This document shows positions 1,733-15,615 of a stretch of 32,529 nt of DNA, in pieces. The notes below the pieces were generated by a model. That model did no database searches. It saw only the letters and a list, made by a program, of their open reading frames with translations, and had not been told where the DNA came from. The position numbers and the translations under genes are program-made. Every line of letters begins with the position of its first letter. Position 1 is the first letter of the stretch. Source of the DNA: Kiritimatiellia bacterium (GTDB lineage Bacteria; Verrucomicrobiota; Kiritimatiellia; RFP12; UBA1067); assembly GCA_017450695.1 (NCBI GenBank), contig JAFSTA010000223.1, positions 1-32,529 of the forward strand, given 5' to 3'.

Positions 1733-2376
1733 TCCAAGAACTCTACAGCAAGCTGAACAACAACGAATTCCTCGCCCCTGGCGGAATCGCCTATAACTTC
1801 TATATCGTTCCCTACGAGGTACGAAAGGAAGCGGAGACGCTGGCCGACATCGATCATATCGTCGAGGATCTCAGGAGACCCACGGATTTTATCGACGTCC
1901 TCTCGCTCGACCTTTTCTCCGTGTTTCTGGAATACCTCGACGCAGACAAGTTCGGCAATCAAAGCAGATTGGCGTTTCTGCTGGATTCGGACGCCCGTGC
2001 GGAATCCGCGTATCTCCACACGAATGTGACCAAGTCGCTCTTTGAGAAAGCACACAGCGAGCAGTTCCGTGATTACGTGCATGCCAAGATCGTGGCGCAT
2101 TTTTCTCAGACAGATCCCGTACACAAACGCCCCTACGTGTTCTTGTGGGGTTTTGGCGCGATGTTCCCCTATCTGCGAGCCAACGAGTTTTTGATCGCTT
2201 ACGAGGCCGTGAATGACGCCAACCTCTACAAAGTGATCCTGTTCTATCCCGGAACGGTGCGCGACGGGCAGTTCTCGTTGTTTGGAGTCCTGAACGACCA
2301 GCACGCCTACCGTGCGCAGATACTGGAAATCGAATCCGAATCGAAAGGAACGAACCATCATGGAAAAACTGGGTGA
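1729..2376 (+). CDS. brxB: BREX protein BrxB (DUF1788 family)
   Basis: The product is 215 aa, starting MIQELYSKLNNNEF and ending ...QILEIESESKGTNHHGKTG. The length, the segment KRPYVFLWGFGAMFPYLRA (about residues 135-153) and the late FYPG motif fit DUF1788/BrxB, a required but biochemically poorly defined BREX component. The start codon overlaps the brxA stop (ATGA), and the 3' end overlaps brxC by 17 bp. Expression is therefore tightly linked to both neighbours. An in-frame ATG at 1546 lies inside brxA and is rejected. Confidence 0.88.
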   Translation: MIQELYSKLNNNEFLAPGGIAYNFYIVPYEVRKEAETLADIDHIVEDLRRPTDFIDVLSLDLFSVFLEYLDADKFGNQSRLAFLLDSDARAESAYLHTNVTKSLFEKAHSEQFRDYVHAKIVAHFSQTDPVHKRPYVFLWGFGAMFPYLRANEFLIAYEAVNDANLYKVILFYPGTVRDGQFSLFGVLNDQHAYRAQILEIESESKGTNHHGKTG

Positions 2377-5300
2377 ACTCTATTCCCGAAACGTGGAGGC
2401 ATCTCTCAATGCCGTCGTCTCCACGGGTGATACAACCGACCAGACAGTCCAGACAGAAATCAACGAGTACGTGTTTACCGACGATATCGTAAACGGCCTG
2501 TACAGGACACTGGAAGCGATAAAGAACGGTTCCACGAGCCACAACGGTGTATGGGTGAGCGGCTATTTCGGATCGGGCAAGTCCCATTTCCTCAAATATG
2601 TCAGCTACTGTCTCCGCAACATGGGCAATGCGATCTCCCGTATGACGGATGCCGTAAAGGAATCCCTTGCGGGTGACAATTTGGGTGTCGTGCCATTGGA
2701 GTGGGCGGGTGTGGCGGATTGGCTGGTGCAACATGCGGCATCCGTCAAGACGATCCTGTTCAACATGGGAGAATCAGGCGATTTCAACGCAAAGGAGGGC
2801 GAAGAGTTCCTGACCGTGTTCTGGAGGAAGTTCAACGAAATGCGCGGGTACAGCGGAGTCAATCTGCCGCTTGCCTATTTCTTGGAGCGTCCGCTCGATA
2901 AGGTCGGCAAGTTCGATGACTTCAAGGCGAAGATCGCGGAGAAGGGATATAACTGGGAGAATGATCGCAGCGATCTGGCGGGGATGAGTCTGGATACCGT
3001 CCTGATGGTAGCGAAGGACACCATGCCGGAACTGACGGTCGATGCCGTCCGGGAAAACATCATCCACAATCGTGTGGTGCTTTCCGTCTCGAATTTTATG
3101 GAGGATGTGAACGAATGGATCCTCGCGCAGGATCCGGATTGCCGTCTTGTCTTCTGTGTGGACGAGATTAGCCAATACATCAACAACCGCGTACAGCTGT
3201 TGCTGCAACTTCAGGAAATCGTGACCGCGTTCCACAACAAGTGTGGCGAGAAGGTCTGGCTCGTCTGCACGGCCCAGCAGGACTTGTCAGAAATCACCTC
3301 CGCGAGTGGGATCGGCGCGGCGAGCGCAGGGTACGGCAAGATTATGGGACGTTTCCCGATCATGGTACAGCTCTCGGCGTCATCTACCGAATTCATCACG
3401 CGCAAGCGCGTGTTGGCGAAAACGGCATCCGCCGCGATCGAACTGGGGCATTTCTACGACGAACAGAAAGACAAAATCAATCATTCCCAGTATGTGTTTC
3501 CGGCCGCTTATCCCGTCTATGCCGACCGTGATGACTTCATCGCCACCTATCCGTTCCTAGGCTGCCATTTCCGGCTCATGGGACAGGTGCTGCGCGCATT
3601 TCGCGACCGGAACTTCGTTGTCCAGAATGTTAAGGACAATGCGCGAAGCGTTCTGACTCTTACCCTTGATGTCGCAAAGGTAACCAGGAACTGCCAGATC
3701 GGAAAGTTCATCGCGTTCGACGAGTTTTTCAGCTGGAATCTCAAGACGGGACTCACGGCTCGCGCCAATTCCGTGATTCAGAACGCCCGGGAGTTGATCA
3801 AACAACGTGAGAACCCGGCATTCGCCGAGCGTGTTTTGAATGTGCTCTTCATGATCTGTCACCTTGACTATCAGGACGCGCAGACGTTCCCTGCGACAAT
3901 CGACAACTTAACTTCGCTGCTGATGACCGATCTCTCGACTTCACGAAAGACACTACGGGAACAGATCGAGGCGGAGGTGAGTTGGCTATGCGAGAAAAGC
4001 GTTCTGATGCGCGAGACCACCAAGGCCGGAACAGATCACTTCAAGTTCTACTCCAAGACTGAATCGGAGATTGATTGCCAGATCAAGGGCATTACGCCCG
4101 GACTTGGCGATCTCGCCTCGATATGGGAGAACCTGATATCCGAACGACTCGGAAGCGCGCTCAAGCCGAAGGTGACTTTCCACGCGACCAAGGTGTCCGT
4201 GGGCATGGACATCCTGGGGCGGCATCTCTTGAGCGGCAATGCGGACGTGAACATCGATCTGCGCATCAATTCGGGAGGCATGTCGCTGGGACAGTTCAGG
4301 CTCGGCAATCACGACACGACACTTGCTTTCTTCGTGAACGATCTGTGCAACGCCGACACGAAATTCCGTGACGCGCTCGATTCCTACTGCAGGTTCGATC
4401 TGTTCAGCAAGCACAATGCGCCCAACAGCCCCGAGGAAAAAGCGGCGTTCGAGGTGTTTCGTGACCGTGCGAAGAGACTCCGTTCAGACCGCCTGATTCC
4501 GGGCATGGAGAAGTTCCTGCTGGAAGCGCCGATCATCAGCGGACAAAATGACATTTCAACCTCGCCGACATCAAATCCCGCCAAGCGGTTCGAGGAGGCG
4601 CTTCAGAAACATCTTGAAATCCTCTATCCCAAGGCGCAGGCGGCTGAAAACCTTCCGCATACAGCCGTGACTCTTTCCGCCGACATTACGGGATGGCATG
4701 CGCCGCTTCCCGGCACTTCGCTTGCCGGTGCGGAGCGGATCGTCGAGGGCTATTTGAGCGGACTTTCCTCGCCGTACCCCATTGCCAGTGTGGTGGATTA
4801 CTTTCAGAAACGCCCCTACGGCTGGGACGAATATGCGACGCTTGCCGTCCTGAACCGTCTCGTGGTTTCCGAACATCGCCAATTCATCTACAATGGTTCG
4901 CCCAATCCGTCCCGCGAGACGGTGGCCGCCAACCTCGCGAAGAATACCGCGAACTTTTCCATTGTCACAAAGGCGGCGATTCCCAAAGAGACAATCGACG
5001 CGTTCCTGGGCGCAATGCGAAAACTTTTCGGGCATACGACGCTCCACAATGCGAGTCAGCAGACAAGCGAACTCGTTGCGCAAGCCAAGGAATTTTTGTC
5101 CGGGAAGACGGAAAGAATTCACACGGTGAAGGGCAAGACCGGGCCGCGCCCGTTCATCGCGACACCGGATGCCGTCTGCACGAAGTTCAGCGCCTGGGAA
5201 CAAATCGTGGATGTTCCCGCCTTCTTCGCCCAGGTCACCGATGAGGCACCCTCGCTCACGGCTGACTGGGACACCACCAAACAGGCGATGGGATTCGTCG

Positions 5301-5878
5301 AAGGAACCCAATGGGACAAGTATCTCGACATCCTCCGCTTTGTATCGCAAAATACGGAGAACGCCCTATTTCTCTCCGGAGCCGACAAGGAAAAGTTCGG
5401 GTATCTTGTCGCCGCAAAGGACGATACGCAACCGTGGAATAGCCTTCCGAGCTGGATCCAGATCAAGAAACAGCTCGAAGCGGCTTTCGAGGAATGCCGT
5501 CAGGAAAAACGCGCCGCCATCGAGGAGGTTTACACGTTCGTGTTCAACGAACTGGCGGAGATTGCGGAAAGTCTCGGCGTGGCGGAATCTCCCGTAGCCT
5601 TTGGCGCGGAGACGATTGCCGAGAAACAGAAGAGCGACTCGCTCATGGCGCTTGAGAACGCGATCAATTCCGCCCAAGCCTTCAAGGATAGGAAAATGCG
5701 GGAGATTATCGCCGCCCAACCTTCTGCCCCCTCTGCAAAACACGTCAAGAGTGTGAAGCTCGCGGTTTCTCATGCGACGCCCCTGAAGAACGAGGCTGAA
5801 GTGGACGCCTATCTGCGTGCGCTGAAACGGAAGCTGATGGCTGAGATCGACGGCGGTTTCGCGATTGTCATTCAGTAA
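2360..5878 (+). CDS. brxC: BREX P-loop ATPase BrxC
   Basis: The product is a 1172-aa large P-loop protein, the usual size of type I BrxC. The Walker A motif GYFGSGKS is at residues 68-75 and a Walker B-like LVFCVDE is at about 263-269, with the acidic pair D268-E269. The rest is long and mostly helical, with no other recognised catalytic motif. BrxC is thought to power or assemble the BREX complex and is needed for defence. The start ATG at 2360 (MEKLGELYS) lies 17 bp inside brxB; a more upstream ATG at 2312 is unlikely. The gap to pglX is 29 bp and contains an AAGGGGG ribosome site. Confidence 0.93.
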   Translation: MEKLGELYSRNVEASLNAVVSTGDTTDQTVQTEINEYVFTDDIVNGLYRTLEAIKNGSTSHNGVWVSGYFGSGKSHFLKYVSYCLRNMGNAISRMTDAVKESLAGDNLGVVPLEWAGVADWLVQHAASVKTILFNMGESGDFNAKEGEEFLTVFWRKFNEMRGYSGVNLPLAYFLERPLDKVGKFDDFKAKIAEKGYNWENDRSDLAGMSLDTVLMVAKDTMPELTVDAVRENIIHNRVVLSVSNFMEDVNEWILAQDPDCRLVFCVDEISQYINNRVQLLLQLQEIVTAFHNKCGEKVWLVCTAQQDLSEITSASGIGAASAGYGKIMGRFPIMVQLSASSTEFITRKRVLAKTASAAIELGHFYDEQKDKINHSQYVFPAAYPVYADRDDFIATYPFLGCHFRLMGQVLRAFRDRNFVVQNVKDNARSVLTLTLDVAKVTRNCQIGKFIAFDEFFSWNLKTGLTARANSVIQNARELIKQRENPAFAERVLNVLFMICHLDYQDAQTFPATIDNLTSLLMTDLSTSRKTLREQIEAEVSWLCEKSVLMRETTKAGTDHFKFYSKTESEIDCQIKGITPGLGDLASIWENLISERLGSALKPKVTFHATKVSVGMDILGRHLLSGNADVNIDLRINSGGMSLGQFRLGNHDTTLAFFVNDLCNADTKFRDALDSYCRFDLFSKHNAPNSPEEKAAFEVFRDRAKRLRSDRLIPGMEKFLLEAPIISGQNDISTSPTSNPAKRFEEALQKHLEILYPKAQAAENLPHTAVTLSADITGWHAPLPGTSLAGAERIVEGYLSGLSSPYPIASVVDYFQKRPYGWDEYATLAVLNRLVVSEHRQFIYNGSPNPSRETVAANLAKNTANFSIVTKAAIPKETIDAFLGAMRKLFGHTTLHNASQQTSELVAQAKEFLSGKTERIHTVKGKTGPRPFIATPDAVCTKFSAWEQIVDVPAFFAQVTDEAPSLTADWDTTKQAMGFVEGTQWDKYLDILRFVSQNTENALFLSGADKEKFGYLVAAKDDTQPWNSLPSWIQIKKQLEAAFEECRQEKRAAIEEVYTFVFNELAEIAESLGVAESPVAFGAETIAEKQKSDSLMALENAINSAQAFKDRKMREIIAAQPSAPSAKHVKSVKLAVSHATPLKNEAEVDAYLRALKRKLMAEIDGGFAIVIQ

Positions 5879-5907: not shown

Positions 5908-8900
5908 ATGAACCTGACGAAAATCGAGAACTTTGCGAAAAACATCCGACGTAGTCTGATGGAGGGTGTGGATGCCGCCCTCACCCTGCTGGGGTTTACG
6001 GATCAAATGCCGGAAGCGCCTATGGCCGTGCAGGGCGGTTGGACCTATCGTGGCAAGGTGGTTGATGATGTGGAGTTTGGCGCGCGGTGGCAGCGGCTCA
6101 AGGATTTCATCGCACACGAAGAGGACGGGCGCAAGGCCGCCGTGGAACGCGCGGCGTACACCTGGTTCAATCGGCTTGTCGCGATTCGGATTCTCGCCAA
6201 GTGCGGTCTTGTGCAGCCTCAGCTCGAATGGGCGGACCAGGCGGCGCATATCCCCGTGATTGTCCATCGGATGCGCACGGGCGGCTGGAAACCCAACCTG
6301 ACGCCCGGCGAGGATGCCGCCTTGGCGCGTATCCGCCACGATCCGACCCAAACGCGCGAGCAGTTCGCAATCCTCGCGGGCGCGTTCTGCCGCGAAACGC
6401 CCATCCTCCAGGCGTCGTTTGGCGAGATCGATGACTGGACGATGCTCCTTGTCCCGACCAATCTGCTCGCGGAGGGCGGGCTTGTCGATTGCCTCAACGA
6501 CGCCACGCTCCTTTCCGATGAGGACTACCGACAGGACGAGCTGATCGGCTGGCTCTACCAGTACTACATCGCCGAGCGCAAGGCCGAGGTGTACGACGGG
6601 TTCAAAAAGAAAAAGAAGGCTGGTGTCGCCGAGATCCCTGCCGCCACGCAGATATTCACCCCGGACTGGATTGTGAAGTATCTCGTGGAGAATACGTTGG
6701 ATTCCGCCGATCCCACCTCAACATCCTTTCTCGATCCCTGCTGCGGATCGGGGCACATTCTGCTGGAGGGATTCCGCCATCTCCTTGCGGCATACGATGA
6801 GCTGGGCTATTCGAAGCGTGTCGCCGTCGAGAGAATTTTCGCCAATAACCTGACGGGGATCGACATCGACCCGCGCGCGCGGCAGCTCTCCACATTCGCG
6901 CTGTTGCTCGCGGCGGCAAAGGAGGACGATTCGTTTGCCGATGCGCACGCGCTCCCGCGTGTGTTTGATACGGCGGGGGCTGTTATCGGCGATTCTATCG
7001 CCGATAACGGGACTCTCGAAAACTACATCGCCAAGACGCTCGGCACATCGAAAGAGAAGGAGATAGGGGAAATCCGTGCCGCCCTTTCGCTTCTCCGCGA
7101 CAGGGGAGAGAACATCGGATCGCTACTCAAGCTCGACCTCGCGCCCGAGACGCGGGCGCTCATCAAAACACGGCTCCCGGATGTGGAGGACAAGGTGCTG
7201 CGACGTGCGCTGGATCGGTTGCTTGTGCTTACGGGCGAATACGATGCGCTCGTCACCAATCCGCCGTATCTCGGCGCAGGGAACCTCAACGCCACCCTGA
7301 AGGAATATCTGGAAAAACACTACAAGGACGGTAAGGGCGACCTCTTCTCGGCATTCATTCTGCGGCTCATCGAAATGTGCAAGACCGGTGGGCGCGTGGG
7401 CATGATCACGATGCAGAGCTGGATGTTTCTCTCTTCTTTTGAAGCGATGCGAAAATGTCTCTTGGAAAAATGCACCATCCTCTCGATGGCTCATCTGGGG
7501 GCGCACGCTTTCGATTCTCTCGGTGGCGAAGTGACACAGACCACTGCCTTTGTACTGGCCAATGAGTTTTACCCTGGTTTTGCGGGAACATACTACCGCC
7601 TTGTGGATGGAAAAAGTGAAAAGGAAAAGAAGGAGTTGTTTTCCAAAATAGAACCATTCCATGTCTCAGCTGACAATTTCAAAAAGATTCCAGGCACTCC
7701 CTTCGCCTATTGGGTGAGCGAGAAGATGCTCAAGGCGTTTGAGGAGGGGAAGCCACTGTCAGAATATGCTTTGCCGCGGCAAGGGATAGCAACTGGCGAT
7801 AATAATCGGTTTTTGAGGTTGTGGTATGAAGTAAGTCTTTCAAGGCTTGGTTTTGACGGACGGCAAGGTGAACATACAACAAAGAAGTGGTATCCTTGCA
7901 GAAAGGGAGGAAGTTATCGGAGGTGGTATGGGAACTATGAGATTGTCCTTGATTGGGAAAATGATGGAAAGAGACTGAAGGAGTTTTCTGGATCCGTAAT
8001 AAGAAATCCCAATTATCATTTTCTTGAGGGAATAACATGGACATCAATTGGGCATACTTTCTCAATGCGGTACGCGCCAGCTGGTTTTCTCTTTGAAAGT
8101 AAGGGTGCGACATGTGTACCAGTAGGGGATTTCTCACTAAAGTTTTCGCTGGCACTTTGCAATACCGTTGTGGCAGATAAGTTCTTGGAACTACTTGCTC
8201 CTACATTAGATTTCCATGAGGGACCAGTTGGCAATCTCCCGACGCTTTTTGTACCAAGGATTCAAAGACAAGTGGAATCACATATTGATGAATTGATTTC
8301 CCTCTCCCGCTCCGATTGGGACGAATATGAGACATCTTGGGATTTTAAGGTGAATCCGCTTGTGCAGGAGGGGTTACGGAAGGGCGCGGGCGGAATGTCG
8401 CTTGAAGATGCGTGGCGGTCGGTCTTTGCCCGGCGCATGGAATGGGCGGCACGCATGAAAGAGCTGGAAGAGGAAAACAACCGACTCTTCATCGAAGCGT
8501 ACGGGCTGGAGGGCGAGCTGTCGCCGACGGTGGCGTGGAAGGATGTGTCGATCACGGGGAATCCGTATTATCGGTATAAGATCGACGGGGAGGGGTTCCG
8601 TTCGGCGCAATATTATTGCGCCGAACAGGACTGCGCCGAACAGGACATAGGGCCGGCCATGCCGCAGATGCCGCCCGAATTGGAGGCGCGGGCGCGGGCG
8701 GATGCGGTGCGCGAGTTGCTATCCTACGGAATGGGCGTTCTGATGGGGCGGTATTCGCTGGAGAAGGAAGGGCCGATCCTTGCCTCGCAGGGCGAAACCA
8801 TACAAGACTACAGGGAACGGATACACGGGGCGGGGAGAATCAGTCCGGATGAAGACGGCGTCATCCCCGCCATCGCGCTGGACGGAGACTTTTTCCAAGA

Positions 8901-9396
8901 CAATCTCCTGTACCGTATGCGCGAGTTCCTGTCGGCGGCATTCGGCAGCGACAGGATCAATGTCAACCTCAACTTCATCGAGGCGGCGCTGGACTGCAAG
9001 ATCGACAAATACCTGACGGACAAGTTCTTCGATGACCATGCGAAGATGTACCGCAAGCGGCCGATCTACTGGCTCTTCGAATCACCGAAAGGCTATTTTT
9101 GCGCATTCGCCTATATGCACCGCATGACGGGGGCGACGGCGGGACTGATCCGCAACAAGTACTTGCTGCCGTACATCGCGCATTTGGAGAAGTGCCATGT
9201 CTCCGAGGCAGCGAAGGGCGCGGCCATGACGAATGCGGAACGCAAGCGCGTGAAAGAAATTGAAAAAGCGATTGCGGACTGCAAGAAGTACGACCTTGCC
9301 CTCCATGACCTTGCGGAAAAGTCCATCGCCATCGACCTCGATGACGGCGTGGCCGTGAACCGGGAGAAATACAAATCTGTCTTGGCGAAAATCTAG
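5908..9396 (+). CDS. pglX: BREX adenine-specific DNA methyltransferase PglX
   Basis: The product is a 1162-aa N6-adenine methyltransferase that marks host DNA in BREX systems. The AdoMet-binding motif I is DPCCGSGH (D276-H283) and the catalytic motif IV is NPPY (451-454); both are intact. The N-terminal 250 residues are the helical region typical of PglX. Residues from about 545 to 810, where target recognition is expected, are encoded by DNA of much lower GC than the flanks. The coding sequence contains two palindromic insertions that keep the frame: one encoding IGDSIADN at 6982-7008, and a hairpin plus a 15-bp tandem duplication at 8600-8646. No frameshift is seen, so the gene should be functional. 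The start follows brxC by 29 bp. Confidence 0.95.
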   Translation: MNLTKIENFAKNIRRSLMEGVDAALTLLGFTDQMPEAPMAVQGGWTYRGKVVDDVEFGARWQRLKDFIAHEEDGRKAAVERAAYTWFNRLVAIRILAKCGLVQPQLEWADQAAHIPVIVHRMRTGGWKPNLTPGEDAALARIRHDPTQTREQFAILAGAFCRETPILQASFGEIDDWTMLLVPTNLLAEGGLVDCLNDATLLSDEDYRQDELIGWLYQYYIAERKAEVYDGFKKKKKAGVAEIPAATQIFTPDWIVKYLVENTLDSADPTSTSFLDPCCGSGHILLEGFRHLLAAYDELGYSKRVAVERIFANNLTGIDIDPRARQLSTFALLLAAAKEDDSFADAHALPRVFDTAGAVIGDSIADNGTLENYIAKTLGTSKEKEIGEIRAALSLLRDRGENIGSLLKLDLAPETRALIKTRLPDVEDKVLRRALDRLLVLTGEYDALVTNPPYLGAGNLNATLKEYLEKHYKDGKGDLFSAFILRLIEMCKTGGRVGMITMQSWMFLSSFEAMRKCLLEKCTILSMAHLGAHAFDSLGGEVTQTTAFVLANEFYPGFAGTYYRLVDGKSEKEKKELFSKIEPFHVSADNFKKIPGTPFAYWVSEKMLKAFEEGKPLSEYALPRQGIATGDNNRFLRLWYEVSLSRLGFDGRQGEHTTKKWYPCRKGGSYRRWYGNYEIVLDWENDGKRLKEFSGSVIRNPNYHFLEGITWTSIGHTFSMRYAPAGFLFESKGATCVPVGDFSLKFSLALCNTVVADKFLELLAPTLDFHEGPVGNLPTLFVPRIQRQVESHIDELISLSRSDWDEYETSWDFKVNPLVQEGLRKGAGGMSLEDAWRSVFARRMEWAARMKELEEENNRLFIEAYGLEGELSPTVAWKDVSITGNPYYRYKIDGEGFRSAQYYCAEQDCAEQDIGPAMPQMPPELEARARADAVRELLSYGMGVLMGRYSLEKEGPILASQGETIQDYRERIHGAGRISPDEDGVIPAIALDGDFFQDNLLYRMREFLSAAFGSDRINVNLNFIEAALDCKIDKYLTDKFFDDHAKMYRKRPIYWLFESPKGYFCAFAYMHRMTGATAGLIRNKYLLPYIAHLEKCHVSEAAKGAAMTNAERKRVKEIEKAIADCKKYDLALHDLAEKSIAIDLDDGVAVNREKYKSVLAKI
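6982..7008. repeat. REP-like palindrome inside pglX
   Basis: GTTATCGGCGAT (6982-6993) and ATCGCCGATAAC (6997-7008) are perfect 12-bp arms around a 3-base loop (TCT). The element encodes VIGDSIADN in frame. The same core (ATCGGCGAT-N3-ATCGCCGAT) occurs in the transposase gene at 9823-9843, with an arm-swapped version at 9573-9591. Confidence 0.8.
7540..8340 (+). other. Low-GC block in the putative target-recognition region of pglX
   Basis: By hand count, sampled 60-base lines between 7801 and 8220 are about 35-42% GC. The line at 8401-8460 is about 62%, and the rest of the gene looks similar. Methyltransferase motifs I and IV lie outside the block. This fits replacement of the specificity segment by recombination with a foreign allele. 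Confidence 0.6.
8600..8646. repeat. Hairpin plus 15-bp tandem duplication inside pglX
   Basis: GTTCGGCGCAA (8600-8610) and TTGCGCCGAAC (8616-8626) are perfect 11-bp arms around TATTA. The right arm starts a 15-bp unit (TGCGCCGAACAGGAC) present twice, at 8617-8631 and 8632-8646, and encoding CAEQD twice. The unit length is a multiple of three, so copy-number change would not break the frame. Confidence 0.8.
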
Positions 9397-9405
9397 AAGA
9401 CATGG

Positions 9406-9419
9406 TAAACTATAGTTTA
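9406..9419. promoter_or_regulatory. AT-rich 14-bp perfect palindrome before the transposase gene
   Basis: TAAACTATAGTTTA reads the same on both strands. It lies 10-23 bp after the pglX stop and 17 bp before the transposase ATG. It is strikingly AT-rich for this region. TTGGCG (9382-9387), 18 bp and TAAACT could form an internal promoter, which would make the palindrome a possible operator. It could also mark an insertion junction. Confidence 0.35.
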
Positions 9420-9436
9420 ACAAATGGGAGAGAACG

Positions 9437-10603
9437 ATGACTGATTATCCTCTGAAAGAAACAATCCATTCCATGCTTCGGCGGTGTGTCGGCTGGGACT
9501 ACACGAAGCCCTGCATCTACATGATCACCGTCGTGCTGGCTGACCGGCGCGGCAAGGCGCTGGGTACCGTTCTCGCCGATAGGATCGGCGATCGCGGGCT
9601 TCCCGCCGCCGCCCATTGCGAACCGACCGACCTGGGGCGGGCGGTGGAAGGATGCTGGGAGGCAATCCCGCGCTTCTATCCGCAGGTGCAGATTCTCGGC
9701 AAACAGGTGATGCCGGACCATTTCCACGGAATCCTGTGGGTGAAAGAGCCGCTGGACTGCCATTTGGGACAGGTGGTCAAAGGCTTCAAGCTGGGTTGCA
9801 ACAAGGCGGCGCGGGCTCTATCATCGGCGATGGCATCGCCGATAACAGGGCTCGGCAAGGGGCTATTCGCGGAGGGCTTTCAGGACACCATCCTTTTCAG
9901 CAGAGGGCAACTCGAAAAGATGATCACCTACATCCAGGCGAACCCGTTACGCCTTGCCGTCAAGCGCGCGATGCCGGAGTTGTTCACGATGGTACGAGAT
10001 GTCCGGATCCCGGTGATCCTGTCGCCGACGGCAGAACCCGCCGACCTGCATTTCTCCGCCATCGGCAACCTGGGGCTGCTGGACCGACCGTTGGTACAGG
10101 TGCAATGCTCACGGCGACACCTCAACTACAGGCGCGTTCCCAAGCCCGGCGGCGGGTTGAAGATCGCGCGGGATGCACAAGGCGAGCCCATCGTTGAATT
10201 CGCCACGAGCGAATACGAGAACCGGCGCGACGAACTGCTGGCGGCAGGCCGTCACGGCGCGGCACTCATTTCACCCTGCATCTCCGACGGGGAGCGGCAG
10301 ATCGCCCGCGAGGCGTTGAAGGAGGGACTGCCGCTCGTCACCATGCAGAACAAGGGTTTCTCGAAACTGCAAAAGCCAAGCGGCCGGTATTTCGACGCCT
10401 GTGCCGCCGGGCGGCTTCTCATGATTGCCCCTGCGGCTTGGCCGCACATGGTCGGTGAAAAGCGGATGACCCGTGACGATGCCCTCGCCATGAATCGCCT
10501 CTGCCAATGGTTGGCGGGGGAGGGGGCCGCCACGATTGACTACAAGGGGCACACACCGGTCAATATCGACCGCATGGCGCTCGACGCCACAAGGAGTCCG
10601 TGA
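9437..10603 (+). CDS. Y1 (HUH) transposase, RAYT-like, with an extra C-terminal domain, inside the BREX operon
   Basis: The product is 388 aa. The N-terminal half is a Y1/IS200-type single-strand transposase domain. The metal-binding HUH signature is H95-F-H97 in VMPDHFHGILWV, and the likely catalytic tyrosine is Y165 in TYIQANP. This matches the REP-associated tyrosine transposase (RAYT) group. Residues about 260-365 form a second domain (LISPCISDGERQIAREAL; later KPSGRYFDACAAGRLLMIAP) that looks Rossmann-like and reminiscent of DprA/SMF. That reading is only tentative. The ATG follows GGGAGAG by about nine bases. The stop overlaps the pglZ start as TGATG. No IS ends or target duplications are seen, so it looks like a resident operon gene and not a fresh insertion. 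Two REP-like palindromes lie within it. Confidence 0.85.
   Translation: MTDYPLKETIHSMLRRCVGWDYTKPCIYMITVVLADRRGKALGTVLADRIGDRGLPAAAHCEPTDLGRAVEGCWEAIPRFYPQVQILGKQVMPDHFHGILWVKEPLDCHLGQVVKGFKLGCNKAARALSSAMASPITGLGKGLFAEGFQDTILFSRGQLEKMITYIQANPLRLAVKRAMPELFTMVRDVRIPVILSPTAEPADLHFSAIGNLGLLDRPLVQVQCSRRHLNYRRVPKPGGGLKIARDAQGEPIVEFATSEYENRRDELLAAGRHGAALISPCISDGERQIAREALKEGLPLVTMQNKGFSKLQKPSGRYFDACAAGRLLMIAPAAWPHMVGEKRMTRDDALAMNRLCQWLAGEGAATIDYKGHTPVNIDRMALDATRSP
9573..9591. repeat. REP-like palindrome inside the transposase gene, copy 1
   Basis: TCGCCGAT (9573-9580) and ATCGGCGA (9584-9591) are 8-bp arms with loop AGG. The arms are the same words as in the palindrome at 6982-7008 but in swapped order. 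In frame it encodes part of LADRIGDRG. Confidence 0.7.
9823..9843. repeat. REP-like palindrome inside the transposase gene, copy 2
   Basis: ATCGGCGAT (9823-9831) and ATCGCCGAT (9835-9843) are 9-bp arms with loop GGC. It is followed by AACAGGGC; read on the other strand, the element and its left flank (CCTGTTATCGGCGAT) nearly match the pglX copy at 6982-7008. It is translated as part of LSSAMASPITG. Confidence 0.75.
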
Positions 10604-13167
10604 TGAAAGCGGAAGAAATCAAAAAGCATTTCGAAACAAGCGGAAGAAACGTCGCGTTTCTATTCGCGGAAGATATCTTCGTGCGTGACGAGATCATGCG
10701 GTTCGACCTGGGAGCCGATACAGAAATCGTGGAATACAAAGGCGATGCGTTCGTGCTCAAGCACAAGATACGCACGTTACCGAAAGAGAAGCGCCTTGTG
10801 GTACTGGTATCGGGACCGTCGCCGCTCGCAACGGGAGAAGACACGGGGTCGTTTCCGCTTCTCGGCGAACTTATGGCGAACGGAGAGTGCAAGGCGCAGA
10901 CGCCGGTCTCGTTCATGGCGGCGAACGGAATGAACACGGGCGATGCCGCACTTGCGGGAATCGTGTCGCGCCATCTTGCAGAGATGACGACGGGAAAAGG
11001 CGATGCGGTGTTCGGCGGGCAGTTCGGGACCGGGTTCACGGCGGAGAAGGCGGCGCAGGGACTGGTGAGCATTCATCTCGGCGCGAAGGAGATGTGGGAG
11101 TGGCGGGAGATATTTGCGAACCTGTTCCTCTGCGATGCCGAAGAGGTAAAGAATCCGAAAAACGGATCGAAGGCGGCGTTCCTGTTCAAATCAGGATTCG
11201 GCGACGTGTTGAAAGAAGTCCAGGGGAAATGCCGATGGTATTTTGGCGCGGAGGGGCAGACGCCGAAAGGCGGAGAAATCGGAAAGAGGGGCTTTTTCTC
11301 TACGGCGGTGGAGCGGCTCGTGTACAATGCGGTGACGCGTCCCCTGCCGGTCGCTGCGGGCGATCCCTATACGACGCGGAAAGAGACGGATGCAGGGAGA
11401 CTGGATCGGATGGAAGGATTCCTGCGCTGGGCTTCAGAGAGCCTGCCGGAGCAGAAGCGGCGAAAGTTCTTCGGCGCGGTCGAGGCATTGTCGGCGCAAG
11501 TCAAGGGCAAGGGCATTGTTGCGGCATACGGCGCGACGGCAAGGTACGGGTTCTATTTCCAGCGGGTTTCGAAGGAGATTCTGCGCACATTGGCAGCGGA
11601 CGGATTCGGGGCTGATTCGGCGACGAAGGCAAAGGCGGCGGAGCGCGTGGCGAGCTCGGCGGTGGCCGATGGCGATACGGTGGCGCTCGCGCGCACGGAG
11701 GCGGCGATGGCCCGGTTCTATGTGGAGCGGGCGAAGATCGCCACGTTCGCGCGGAATACGCGGGAGGAGATGCTTTCCGCATACACGGGCGGATGGTGGC
11801 GCCTCGACAGGGAGTACAGGCTGGCGCTGGAGCACCTTGCCTCAATCGCGAATGACGAGTGCCGTGCTGTGGTGGAGAGGGCAAAGGAGAAGTTTGAGAC
11901 GGATGCCCAAGGGACATTCAACGAAATGAACCTTGCCTGGACAAACACGCTCAATGCGGCGGGTGGTGCCGTAGGCATAGAGGGGGTGTTGGCGCAAGAG
12001 GACTTCTACGAGAAGAAGAAAGACCCGTCGGTGAAGATGGCCGTGGTGGTGAGCGACGCCCTGCGGTACGAGGTGGCGCTGGAGGTGATGGACCGGCTGA
12101 ACGCGAACCGGGGGGCCGTCACGATGGAGGCGGGAATCGCGCATCTGCCGACCGAGACCCAGTACACGAAAGCGACATTGCTGCCGCACACTTCAATCGA
12201 ATTCCAGAGGGGCCAGGCGCTGCGGCTCGACGGCGGCAAACCGACGGTGACGACGGCCGACAAGCAGGGCATTCTTCAGGCGCACTGCACGGAGGGGGTG
12301 TGCGTGACGGCGAAAGATCTGAAGGGCAAGGCACAGACTGAGAAAAGAGCCATTTTCAAGAACAGGGTCGTCTATGTTTTCCACGACTCCATCGACCATA
12401 CCGGACACGGTGCGGCAACCGGACAAGAGATGGCCGGGGCGTGTCGCGAGGCTGTGGACGAGTTGGTCAAGCTGATACAGAACATCCAGAACACATGCAA
12501 TGTCAACCATGTGTGGCTGGTGGCAGACCATGGCTTTCTGCTCTGCGACCGCGACATCCCGGACGGCGAAAAGATTCCGGTGGAGGAGAATGAAGACGCC
12601 AAGGAGAAGACGACGCGCTACTACTTCACGGAGCGGGCGGATCCCATCCATGCCATCTTGAAGGTGGCGCTTCCGGATGGCGGATTCGTGGCGGTGCCGG
12701 CGGGGACGCGTCGCTTCAAGGCCAACGGAAGCTATACGTTCGTGCATGGCGGCGCGTCGCTACAGGAGATGGTCATCCCGGTCATGCATTCGCGGCTGCT
12801 CGGCACGGACGCGACGAGGAGCCGTGCGAAGGTGGGCGTGACGATACTCGGTACCAACCTGCGCGTACAGTCGAGTCGGATCAAGTTCGAGTTGTTGCAG
12901 AACGAGGCCGTTTCCGCGGAGATGCAGGAACGGACGGTGCTTTGCGCCCTGTATGCGGATTCCGAGATGGTCAGCAACGAAGTGAGGATCAAGCTCGACT
13001 CCACGAGTGCGTCGCTGGATGATCGGAAGAAGGTCGTCGAGCTTGTGCTGAACGGGGAGACGGCGGGCATCCTCACGCTCAAGGTCTTCGCGGATGGCGA
13101 TTCGTTAAACGCGCTTGACGAAAAGACCGTAACCAACGAAACCCTTATCCCTATGGACAACTGGTAA
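10603..13167 (+). CDS. pglZ: BREX alkaline-phosphatase-superfamily protein PglZ
   Basis: The product is 854 aa, the usual size for type I PglZ, a member of the alkaline phosphatase superfamily required for BREX. Metal-site motifs are visible: VVVSDALRYE (481-490) and LVADHGF (639-645), with VFHDSIDHTGHG between them. The first 400 residues are helical and charged, as expected for the N-terminal BREX-specific part. The ATG at 10603 has AAGGAG six bases upstream. The GTG at 10600 is in frame but too close to that site. The start overlaps the transposase stop (TGATG), so its translation probably depends on the transposase gene. It is followed after 15 bp by the brxL-type gene. Confidence 0.93.
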   Translation: MKAEEIKKHFETSGRNVAFLFAEDIFVRDEIMRFDLGADTEIVEYKGDAFVLKHKIRTLPKEKRLVVLVSGPSPLATGEDTGSFPLLGELMANGECKAQTPVSFMAANGMNTGDAALAGIVSRHLAEMTTGKGDAVFGGQFGTGFTAEKAAQGLVSIHLGAKEMWEWREIFANLFLCDAEEVKNPKNGSKAAFLFKSGFGDVLKEVQGKCRWYFGAEGQTPKGGEIGKRGFFSTAVERLVYNAVTRPLPVAAGDPYTTRKETDAGRLDRMEGFLRWASESLPEQKRRKFFGAVEALSAQVKGKGIVAAYGATARYGFYFQRVSKEILRTLAADGFGADSATKAKAAERVASSAVADGDTVALARTEAAMARFYVERAKIATFARNTREEMLSAYTGGWWRLDREYRLALEHLASIANDECRAVVERAKEKFETDAQGTFNEMNLAWTNTLNAAGGAVGIEGVLAQEDFYEKKKDPSVKMAVVVSDALRYEVALEVMDRLNANRGAVTMEAGIAHLPTETQYTKATLLPHTSIEFQRGQALRLDGGKPTVTTADKQGILQAHCTEGVCVTAKDLKGKAQTEKRAIFKNRVVYVFHDSIDHTGHGAATGQEMAGACREAVDELVKLIQNIQNTCNVNHVWLVADHGFLLCDRDIPDGEKIPVEENEDAKEKTTRYYFTERADPIHAILKVALPDGGFVAVPAGTRRFKANGSYTFVHGGASLQEMVIPVMHSRLLGTDATRSRAKVGVTILGTNLRVQSSRIKFELLQNEAVSAEMQERTVLCALYADSEMVSNEVRIKLDSTSASLDDRKKVVELVLNGETAGILTLKVFADGDSLNALDEKTVTNETLIPMDNW

Positions 13168-13182
13168 GACAGGAGAAGAAAG

Positions 13183-15615
13183 ATGACGGAGATAGACAAC
13201 GAAGTGCTGGAAGCGGACAAGAAACTCAATGTGAAGGTACTGGAGAGATTCGCGAAGTCCGTGGTGCGCAAAGACCTTGCCTTTCAGGTGAAGGGGAATC
13301 TGCCCGTGCCCACGTATGTGATCGAGTATCTGCTCGCGCAATTCTGTCAGTCAAGTGACGAACAGGAGATTGCCAAGGGCATGGAGGAGGTGAAGGAGAT
13401 CGTTCGCGAACGCTATTTCAACCGGGCGGACAACGAAATCATCAAAGGACGCATTCGGGAGAAGGGTTCGTATCTGATCATCGACAAGGTGAGCGCGTAT
13501 CTTGATGCAGGGGCGAACTGCTATCGGTGCAAGTTGGAAAATCTCGGGCTTGGCGGACTCAATATCCCGGATCAGGTCGTCCGGGCGAACGAGAAGCTGC
13601 TTTCAGGCACGGGGGTGTGGTCGCTCATCAAGATGAAATTCGATCCGGGCGACGATGCGGTTGATCGGTGGGTCATCGAAGAGTACAAGCCGATCCAGAT
13701 CGCCAACGTGGATGTGGGGGAATACAAGGCACACCGCAAGGAGTTCACGACAGATGAATGGATCGACTTCCTGATCCATTCGTCCGGGCTGAACCCGTGC
13801 GTCCTCAACCGGCGCGAGAAGCTGCTTGTCATCGCGAGGTTCTTGCCATACGTGGAGAACAACTTCAACTTTATGGAACTGGGGCCGAAAGGGACGGGAA
13901 AGAGCCATGTGTTCCAGGACTTCTCCCCTTATGGCGTACTGGTGAGCGGAGGCGACATGACAAGCGCCAGGCTGTTTGTGAAAGAGGGCAAGCAGGAGTC
14001 GCTGGGGCTTGTGGCATTTTGGGACAATGTCACCTGGGATGAATATGAACAACGGAAAGGAACGCGCATCAAAGACCCGTCCATTGTTGCGACAATGCAG
14101 AACTATCTTGCCAACAAGGCGTTCAACAGGGGTGGTGCGACGCATGTGGCATCGGCTTCCATGTCCTTCGTGGGCAACACGAAACATACCGTCGATTACA
14201 TGATGCGCCGGACGCATCTTTTTGAATCAATCCCCTCGGACTTCTTTGTCAACGGCGGCGCTTTCCTCGACCGCATCCATCTGTATAATCCCGGATGGGA
14301 GATTTCGCCGCTTAAGAAAAGCAGTTTCTCGGTGGGTTATGGCATGATCACGGACTATTTCGCGGCGATTCTCCATGCCATGCGCAACGAGGACCGCTCG
14401 GGGGAGATGGCGAAGTTTGCGAAGTTCAGCAGCACGTTAAGCGAACGCGACCACCTTGCCGTTCGCAAGACTTTCTCCGGCATGATGAAGCTGCTGTTTC
14501 CCGATGGCGCTTATACGACGGACGAGGCGTTTGAGATCATCGACTTCGCGGCGGAAGGACGCAAGCGGGTGAAGGAGCAGCTGTACAAGATCGACGAGAC
14601 CTTCAGGGCGGAGCCGGCGGTGTTCGAGTACACGATCCTGTCAAGCGGAGAGAAGCGGCAGATCAAGACGCTGGAAGAGATCGAGAACGTAGTGGCGGGT
14701 GACGAGTGCCCGGTGGCTAGCGGTGCGTGCCCGGTGGATCGTGACGGCAATCACGAACTAGCCACTGACCACTACCCGACGGCCACGAATTTTGGCCCGA
14801 AGCATGTTTATATCCAGACCAACCAGCGCGGTGTCTCGTACAAGTCGCTGTTCGGAGACTATCTGAGGGGCGCTCAGGAGATCGTCATCGTCGATCCCTA
14901 CATCCACAAACCGTACCAGATAGACAATCTCACCGACCTGTTGCAGCTGATCCTGGACTTGAACGCAGACTCAGAGGATCTGCGTGTAGAGTTGCACACG
15001 AGCGTGAACGAGGCCGATCCTGCGGGGCAGAACGAGGCGTTTGAATCGCTCAAGGAGGATTTGGCGCGTGAGGGTGTGGAGTTCGATTTCACCTACGACG
15101 CCACGCATGACAGGGCGATTCTGGTTGACGACAAGTGGGCGATCAACCTTGGACGCGGGTTGGACATCTTTGAATGGTTTCAACGATATTCGCTGAAGAA
15201 GACGTCACAGCGGATGCGCAAGTGCCGCGACTTCCAGATGACAATCGCGCCGATCCGGCCGACGGTCAGCGCGGATGAGCTAATCGCCGGCGTCAAGGCG
15301 GGGCAGGTCAAGTCCAATAGCACCGACGGCTATCTTGTGCTTGCGGGACAGTTCTACGATGAGATCGAGGCCGGCACGAAGACCGTCGAGTACCGTGATT
15401 TCACGAAGTACAACCTCAAGCGCACAATCGGCATCACAACGATCCGGTTCAATCGCGGCTACGGGCACCCCGGCCAGCCGCCCGCGCAGATGCGCTGGGA
15501 GGTGGAGAAGGTCGTGTTTCAGGATGCCGCCAACAACGAGTGCGATCCTATGACCGCGCCGGACGGTTTTGTCCCCGTGAGGATAGCGATCTATCTTGGG
15601 AAGCGAATCGGGTAA
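13183..15615 (+). CDS. brxL: BrxL-type AAA+ protein with MIT_C/PLD-like and ASCH domains replacing the Lon-like domain
   Basis: The product is 810 aa, longer than typical type I BrxL (about 680). Residues 1-500 match the BrxL AAA+ core: Walker A GPKGTGKS (234-241), Walker B-like LVAFWDN (276-282), and a sensor-like GNTKH further on. D281 is followed by N282 where a glutamate is usual. After GRKRVKEQLYKIDE and a short repeat-derived linker (about 508-535), the expected Lon-protease-like domain is absent. Instead about 540-690 resembles the MIT_C phospholipase-D-like fold (IVIVDPYIHKPYQ; HDRAILVDDKWAINLGRGLD). About 715-808 is an ASCH domain with the signature GxKxxExR (G731, K733, E736, R738). 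ASCH belongs to the PUA-like superfamily that also contains modified-base readers. AGGAG lies seven bases before the ATG. In other BREX systems BrxL is a DNA-binding AAA+ ring. The AAA+ and ASCH calls are firm; MIT_C is likely. Confidence 0.88.
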   Translation: MTEIDNEVLEADKKLNVKVLERFAKSVVRKDLAFQVKGNLPVPTYVIEYLLAQFCQSSDEQEIAKGMEEVKEIVRERYFNRADNEIIKGRIREKGSYLIIDKVSAYLDAGANCYRCKLENLGLGGLNIPDQVVRANEKLLSGTGVWSLIKMKFDPGDDAVDRWVIEEYKPIQIANVDVGEYKAHRKEFTTDEWIDFLIHSSGLNPCVLNRREKLLVIARFLPYVENNFNFMELGPKGTGKSHVFQDFSPYGVLVSGGDMTSARLFVKEGKQESLGLVAFWDNVTWDEYEQRKGTRIKDPSIVATMQNYLANKAFNRGGATHVASASMSFVGNTKHTVDYMMRRTHLFESIPSDFFVNGGAFLDRIHLYNPGWEISPLKKSSFSVGYGMITDYFAAILHAMRNEDRSGEMAKFAKFSSTLSERDHLAVRKTFSGMMKLLFPDGAYTTDEAFEIIDFAAEGRKRVKEQLYKIDETFRAEPAVFEYTILSSGEKRQIKTLEEIENVVAGDECPVASGACPVDRDGNHELATDHYPTATNFGPKHVYIQTNQRGVSYKSLFGDYLRGAQEIVIVDPYIHKPYQIDNLTDLLQLILDLNADSEDLRVELHTSVNEADPAGQNEAFESLKEDLAREGVEFDFTYDATHDRAILVDDKWAINLGRGLDIFEWFQRYSLKKTSQRMRKCRDFQMTIAPIRPTVSADELIAGVKAGQVKSNSTDGYLVLAGQFYDEIEAGTKTVEYRDFTKYNLKRTIGITTIRFNRGYGHPGQPPAQMRWEVEKVVFQDAANNECDPMTAPDGFVPVRIAIYLGKRIG
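14707..14765 (+). repeat. Intergenic-type repeat embedded in the brxL linker
   Basis: TGCCCGGTGG occurs at 14707-14716 and 14728-14737. GTGGCTAG (14713-14720) is inverted at 14758-14765 (CTAGCCAC). The style (GGTGGCTAGCGG, CTAGCCACTGACCACTACCCG) resembles the non-coding repeats at 18602-18634 and 21960-22015. It encodes a low-complexity linker between the AAA+ and PLD-like domains without breaking the frame. Confidence 0.55.

Follow-up and report, generated by a model that had tools for sequence, protein, structure and literature searches.

A RAYT-like HUH gene with a predicted DprA-like domain, nested in a BREX operon and related to genes inside Type I restriction-modification operons

RAYTs (TnpAREP) belong to the small group of bacterial transposases that are regarded as domesticated. 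ShosA, a protein with a DprA-type fold, is part of an anti-phage toxin-antitoxin pair. Defence operons often move between genomes, and a gene embedded in one would therefore be carried along. In the text of Quentin et al. (2018, PMC6006769), REPs that lie in frame within the gene itself, in most cases in the stretch separating the HuH from the Tyr motif, are described as unique to RAYT subclass 2.4, whose members have the motifs NH[IFV]H and YIxNNP, a median length of 194 aa and a GT[AG]G foot; the term DprA does not occur in the main text of that study. Genes nested in defence operons have also been described: BrxU lies between brxC and pglX in BREX (PMC8565348) and TgvAB inside a Type I restriction-modification (R-M) operon of V. 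cholerae (PMC11411939), both with tested defence. Literature searches on RAYT, DprA, ShosA, REP and Type I R-M returned no RAYT variant that carries a DprA-like domain and is nested in defence operons.

The gene occupies positions 9437–10603 (+ strand) of the window, by which we mean the whole stretch of 32,529 nucleotides that was analysed (Kiritimatiellia bacterium, assembly GCA_017450695.1, contig JAFSTA010000223.1, positions 1–32,529 of the forward strand). The ORF is intact, starting with ATG and encoding 388 aa with no internal stops, and it lies between pglX and pglZ of a BREX type 1 operon with all genes on the + strand, in the order brxA (1139–1732), brxB (1729–2376), brxC (2360–5878), pglX (5908–9396), the RAYT-DprA gene, pglZ (10603–13167) and brxL (13183–15615). 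BrxA, BrxB, BrxC, PglX, PglZ and BrxL each matched PADLOC models (the scan used longer ORFs for brxA, 1010–1732, and brxB, 1546–2376), and no PADLOC model matched the RAYT-DprA protein. Several observations of a preliminary description of this locus were borne out: the gene is RAYT-like with intact motifs, H95, H97 and Y165 being where they had been placed; it has its own presumed ribosome site, GGGAGAG, read from the sequence 5' of the start (9426–9432, + strand); and it is co-oriented with pglZ and overlaps it, the stop TGA (10601–10603) having its A in common with the pglZ start ATG (10603–10605) to give TGATG. This junction (10591–10605, + strand) also includes AAGGAG, a ribosome-site-like stretch for pglZ within the end of the RAYT-DprA ORF.

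H95, H97, Y165 and N169 are kept in all 38 aligned sequences, and P170 in 37 of the 38. The sole sequence-family match was NCBIfam REP_Tyr_transpos (NF047646; E 6.9e-10), whose 39 bits are below the curated cut-off of 80 for a model that represents one equivalog and not the whole RAYT/TnpAREP class. Pfam gave no match at E ≤ 1, the protein alone, used as a sequence query against PDB, gave none, and the gene was matched neither in viral contigs nor in a plasmid collection; Rfam had no match in window positions 9000–11000. The AlphaFold2 model, made with 57 sequences, has a mean pLDDT of 91.4 and two domains. The first, a HUH/Y1 domain (aa 1–180; 9437–9976, + strand), contains H95-F96-H97, Y165, N169 and P170, and its core matches the IS608 and ISDra2 transposases (VIA-align Z ~12–13) and the E. 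coli RAYT 4er8 (Foldseek E 2.7e-5, rmsd 2.3; VIA Z 11.7). The second (aa 184–379; 9986–10573, + strand) resembles DprA/ShosA structures (4ljk, 3uqz, 8zva) with Z 9.8–12.0 over ~147–150 residues at 12–15% identity, ShosA 8zva scoring 12.0 and the DprA proteins of H. pylori (4ljk, 10.4) and pneumococcus 9.8–10.4; a profile of the 57 sequences found no DprA chain at E ≤ 1 among PDB sequences. The second domain is DprA-like at the level of the predicted fold, as the preliminary description had supposed, and the model thus joins an N-terminal HUH/Y1 single-strand nuclease fold to a DprA-like fold.

Compared with E. coli TnpAREP (4er8), the window protein has the same HUH and Tyr core, the Y---NP motif, the core fold and the association with REPs, but is about twice as long, with an extra DprA-like C-terminal domain, has a REP foot of GTYCYG instead of GT[AG]G, and belongs to a family in which some copies are embedded in defence operons. 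The catalytic-core fold is also that of IS200/IS605 TnpA (IS608, ISDra2); here the window protein differs by Y---NP (Y165, N169, P170) in place of Y---Q and by its large extra domain, and the copies in its own genome are not near-identical as IS copies are. The C-terminal fold is like that of DprA and ShosA over ~150 residues, whereas the window domain is fused to a HUH domain and the similarity is one of fold only.

The gene contains an in-frame REP-like hairpin (9823–9843, + strand) in the part that separates its HUH motif from the catalytic Tyr; the tail of this hairpin, AACAGGGC, differs from the foot pattern by one base. The hairpin scan gave a second, shorter palindrome with the same type of stem (9573–9591, + strand). 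Across the family, hairpins with 8-bp arms occur at 1.92 per kb of family ORF, compared to 0.27 per kb in other genes, and codon-shuffled family ORFs contained 14 of them against 184 in the real ones. A C[AG]G[AG]AC foot was present on 95 of these 184 hairpins (1.9% at random positions), and footed hairpins numbered 9.9 per 10 kb in family ORFs, 1.1 between genes and 0.28 in other genes. The in-frame REP between the HuH and Tyr motifs is common to the window gene and subclass 2.4 of Quentin et al.; since the motifs (DHFH, YIQANP), length (388 aa) and foot (GTYCYG) do not agree, the gene was not filed under that subclass. Two further REP-like hairpins lie in frame in pglX, one with the C[AG]G[AG]AC foot at 6982–7008 and a second footed one at 8600–8626 (both + strand), each at an indel relative to the pglX of genome G133, whose operon is described below. 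They suggest past activity of the REP system in the window BREX operon. The preliminary description had envisaged a shuffling of the locus, of which no sign was found apart from these REP hairpins in pglX.

The orthologous operon in G133 (contig C29), a genome from the same family, reads brxA-brxB-brxC-pglX-pglZ-brxL and lacks the RAYT-DprA gene, the pglX stop and the pglZ ATG being 10 nt apart with nothing between them. Amino acid identities to the window proteins are 75% for BrxA, 65% for BrxB, 63% for BrxC, 65% for PglX, 65% for PglZ and 75% for BrxL. Four genomes out of 161 in the order, counting the one that the window comes from, have a PglZ of the window type, and two of these four are distant; at these distant loci (L084, L085; ~28% identity, 1.5 kb flank) the RAYT-DprA family was not matched. 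In tblastn searches with the BREX proteins, the surroundings of the copies were free of BREX genes in a set of 44 loci and in one of 80 loci, and the relatives with 78, 74 and 65% identity to the window gene are all outside BREX. The nearest (L042, the same as L087; 78%) comes from G001, a genome of the window's genus, where it is flanked by an M16 peptidase gene and, on the opposite strand, an acyltransferase gene.

Because the orthologous site is empty and no BREX association was seen among related copies, gain in the window operon after the split from the G133 relative is the likeliest history; loss in G133 is possible, a single close empty site having been compared, but needs more steps. 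The RAYT-DprA gene is not a BREX component. It had been presented as built into BREX, with the order pglX-RAYT-pglZ to be looked for elsewhere and a clean empty site named as evidence to the contrary; such a site is what G133 has, and no examined related copy is in BREX. A domesticated, constitutive component with a role in tuning or shuffling the operon, as the preliminary description would have it, agrees with the intact motifs, the shared strand, the TGATG overlap with pglZ and the REP hairpins in pglX, but is largely refuted by the empty site, the lack of any other BREX association found and the ordinary frequency of such overlaps, and we hold it to be very improbable. Two minor features of the compared operon may be recorded. 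In G133 (L086, reverse strand) pglX matches in two frames near the N-terminus, which may be a frameshift or an assembly error, and the last ~110 residues of the window BrxL (13183–15615) match a separate place of G133 ~1.5 kb further downstream, with other genes between.

The overlap with pglZ had been put forward as an argument against recent insertion. Among the copies of the family, 17 of 79 end in ATGA and 2 of 79 in TGATG, giving 19 of 79 with a stop-start overlap, and the same arrangement was found for 104 of 583 other genes in these loci. As coupling is ordinary, the argument fails; coupling does not date an insertion, and within an operon it is no sign of long residence. On the same counts, stop-start overlap was rejected as a hallmark of the family.

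The window's own genome has the family at five places, with copies no more than ~58% alike over the matched pieces. Matches were found in 43 of 60 relatives, in at least 121 of the 161 genomes of the order (E ≤ 1e-10) and in 30 of 387 genomes in a draw from the phylum (E ≤ 1e-60), 18 of these 30 belonging to the window's order; nearly all genomes are metagenome assemblies. When contigs of 84,980 species were scanned, 236 related stretches were obtained, and the best 80 of these, 76 of them stop-free, came from Kiritimatiellae, Lentisphaerae/Victivallales, bacteria named as Verrucomicrobia, and Prevotellaceae, many from gut or rumen.

The window gene and L087 are sisters on the tree (100/93), and their similarity runs from position −10 relative to the start codon through the stop, and no further. 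Likewise, L122, which is in an R-M operon, and L120, which is outside one, are similar from −2 onwards, up to a point 9 nt short of the stop. Since the similarity between copies in unrelated places corresponds approximately to the ORF alone, it is the gene itself that moves. Copies enter operon junctions with both neighbouring genes undamaged: in one Type I R-M operon (L048, the same as L116) the copy lies exactly between hsdM and hsdS and overlaps both, and in L268, whose hsdM and hsdR DNA is ~90% identical to that of L116, hsdM and hsdS are 1 nt apart. A common target sequence at the insertion points was considered and rejected, as the flanks differ. At one R-M site a GAGGT...ATGAGC repeat is present on both sides of the copy. 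Four related copies (L111, L124, L125, L126) have a common upstream gene of ~240 aa, two of them standing before hsdR and two elsewhere, and gene and neighbour may travel together in these loci; the upstream gene of L111, the one of the four that was scanned on its own, had no Pfam match.

Type I R-M genes were close to the copy in 14 of 80 loci. Immediate downstream neighbours matched HSDR_N in 11 of 73 cases and upstream neighbours N6_Mtase in 5 of 62, counts that are lower bounds because the gene caller, a custom script (16 of 81 copies were pinned by hand), missed some genes. As a control, 110 genes were drawn from the same loci at distances above 5 kb, of which 70 were scanned; two matched N6_Mtase, and HSDR_N was not among the 25 families listed. 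The association was also assessed among the matches listed for HSDR_N (148 rows), for the family at E ≤ 1e-80 (91 rows) and for other Y1 transposases (PF01797, 149 rows after the RAYT-DprA gene itself had been dropped). Among these listed matches, HSDR_N lay within 2.0 kb downstream and on the same strand in 15 of the 91 strong family rows, with 0.04 expected if genomes of 3 Mb and uniform placement are assumed, and near 1 of the 149 PF01797 rows at a more generous limit of 2.6 kb (Fisher P 2.4e-6, the rows not being independent since some of the R-M operons are related to each other). Relatives of the window gene thus show a strong excess in Type I R-M operons, while at least 73 of the 91 copies have no known defence operon around them.

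Two more copies were found in R-M operons with another type of HsdR (G036:C231, L070/L144; G047:C46, L077), and another (G081:C290, L307) follows an apparent hsdS gene, as judged by eye; the latter came from the 21 of 40 fetched loci that were taken as not repeating earlier contigs. The R-M operons with copies fall into several diverged families, with hsdM-hsdS or hsdS-hsdR as the junction used. On a tree of 92 of the 108 proteins, near-identical rows having been dropped, the R-M label needs 12–13 changes, which means many separate gains or losses of the association. Label shuffles (n = 20, on an 88-row set in which 12 changes are needed) gave 13–17. The possibility that the R-M copies form a single domesticated clade was rejected on the 12–13 changes and on a clustering only slightly above that of the shuffles. 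One copy lies in another kind of defence operon: on a Lentisphaerae contig (L148, 2–2580) it is found between cas7 and cas4 and overlaps the cas4 start (Cas7 E 6.7e-104, Cas4 E 2.1e-24), with an apparent cas1 next, in what we take from the gene order to be a type I-C CRISPR-Cas operon. In sister R-M operons without RAYT-DprA (HsdR 92–94% identical) the slot is filled by other genes, namely a DUF1016/YhcG nuclease gene in L267 (5039–6115) and an AlbA_2 gene together with a 354-aa gene without assignment in L247 (6114–8629), and the R-M junction seems to be a site that accommodates accessory genes.

These data bear on a plain selfish REP-RAYT system (REPtron), for which the R-M enrichment would merely mark recombination hot spots that tolerate insertions. 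Multiple copies in varied contexts, REP hairpins within the ORF itself, a trait of subclass 2.4 in Quentin et al., and close R-M relatives both with and without a copy would all follow from such a system. The other Y1 transposases of the same genomes, of which 1 in 149 among the matches listed is near hsdR, speak against it, as does the finding that copies in R-M operons do not decay (see below); we regard it as possible, without favouring it.

Comparison of the window gene with L087 gave a dN/dS of 0.14, similar in both halves. In R-M operons, the values for RAYT-DprA were 0.17 (L097/L115), 0.18 (L122/L127) and 0.18 (L116/L109), and 0.19, 0.11, 0.12, 0.24 and 0.12 in five further pairs. With dN/dS of 0.11–0.24 in these eight pairs, the gene is not decaying there, although it is less constrained in most pairs than hsdR (0.05–0.18 across seven comparisons, L098–L100 left out). 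The dS values of RAYT-DprA and hsdR in the three closest pairs (0.17 and 0.12, 0.27 and 0.23, 0.17 and 0.29, respectively) are comparable, which fits joint inheritance. Purifying selection inside R-M operons could mean that the host wants the gene, in which case "passenger" would be the wrong word.

The constraint also speaks for a stand-alone immune gene nested in R-M or BREX operons, in the manner of BrxU and TgvAB. The DprA-like domain would then recognise DNA in single-stranded or hairpin form, whether from phages, from plasmids or taken up by transformation, and the HUH domain would cut it, complementing the double-strand systems around it. The over-representation in Type I R-M operons, the single BREX and CRISPR-Cas operons, the YhcG/DUF1016 nuclease (L267) or AlbA_2 gene (L247) in the same slot of related R-M operons, the top-scoring DprA-like fold being that of ShosA and the catalytic residues kept in 38 of 38 sequences all agree with such an effector; most copies, however, adjoin unrelated genes, R-M systems with 92–94% identical HsdR do without RAYT-DprA, and no PADLOC model matches the protein. 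BrxU and TgvAB are likewise accessory genes nested in a BREX or R-M operon, but they are GmrSD-type modification-dependent enzymes, whereas the window gene encodes an HUH-DprA protein. As embedded genes with proven defence, they give the defence reading a precedent. RAYT-DprA may contribute to defence, given that its copies recur inside Type I R-M operons, under purifying selection there, and in one CRISPR-Cas operon, even if we consider the embedded effector as such, and the division of labour proposed for its domains, rather unlikely. A broader proposal, in which a portable single-stranded DNA immune or uptake module is swapped among BREX, Type I R-M and CRISPR-Cas slots and a transposase family has repeatedly been recruited as an embedded defence gene, seems unlikely to us; if true, a single-strand-specific layer would be added to double-strand-specific systems.

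The account that we consider probable is that a mobile RAYT-DprA gene becomes an embedded passenger, perhaps an accessory, of defence operons and is not part of BREX; the data suggest a gene that travels with bacterial immune systems as a passenger or an addition to them. As to how the mobile gene moves, we infer that the gene's REP hairpins (stem and GTYCYG-type foot) would be the places where the HUH domain cuts and rejoins single-stranded DNA, while the DprA-like domain would hold the single strand, and that the gene would spread with its REPs through single-stranded intermediates, at replication forks or in incoming DNA. A copy would survive if it landed exactly in an operon junction with both neighbours still translated, and the window copy would have landed between pglX and pglZ after the operon parted from its G133 relative. 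The advantage of being a passenger, possibly together with an action of its own against single-stranded foreign DNA, may explain why the gene recurs in defence operons. RAYT-DprA adds to the genes known to be nested in defence systems. Its recurrence in R-M operons, where it is under purifying selection, together with the single BREX and CRISPR-Cas cases, offers a concrete setting in which to consider the role of RAYTs in the cell.

A recurrent neighbourhood of another kind was observed in Prevotellaceae/Bacteroidales. In seven loci (L149, L151–L154, L156 and L158) a small lipoprotein-like gene, related from locus to locus, comes next after the copy; DUF4840 is matched by six of these downstream neighbours, and MacB/FtsX permease genes are often nearby.
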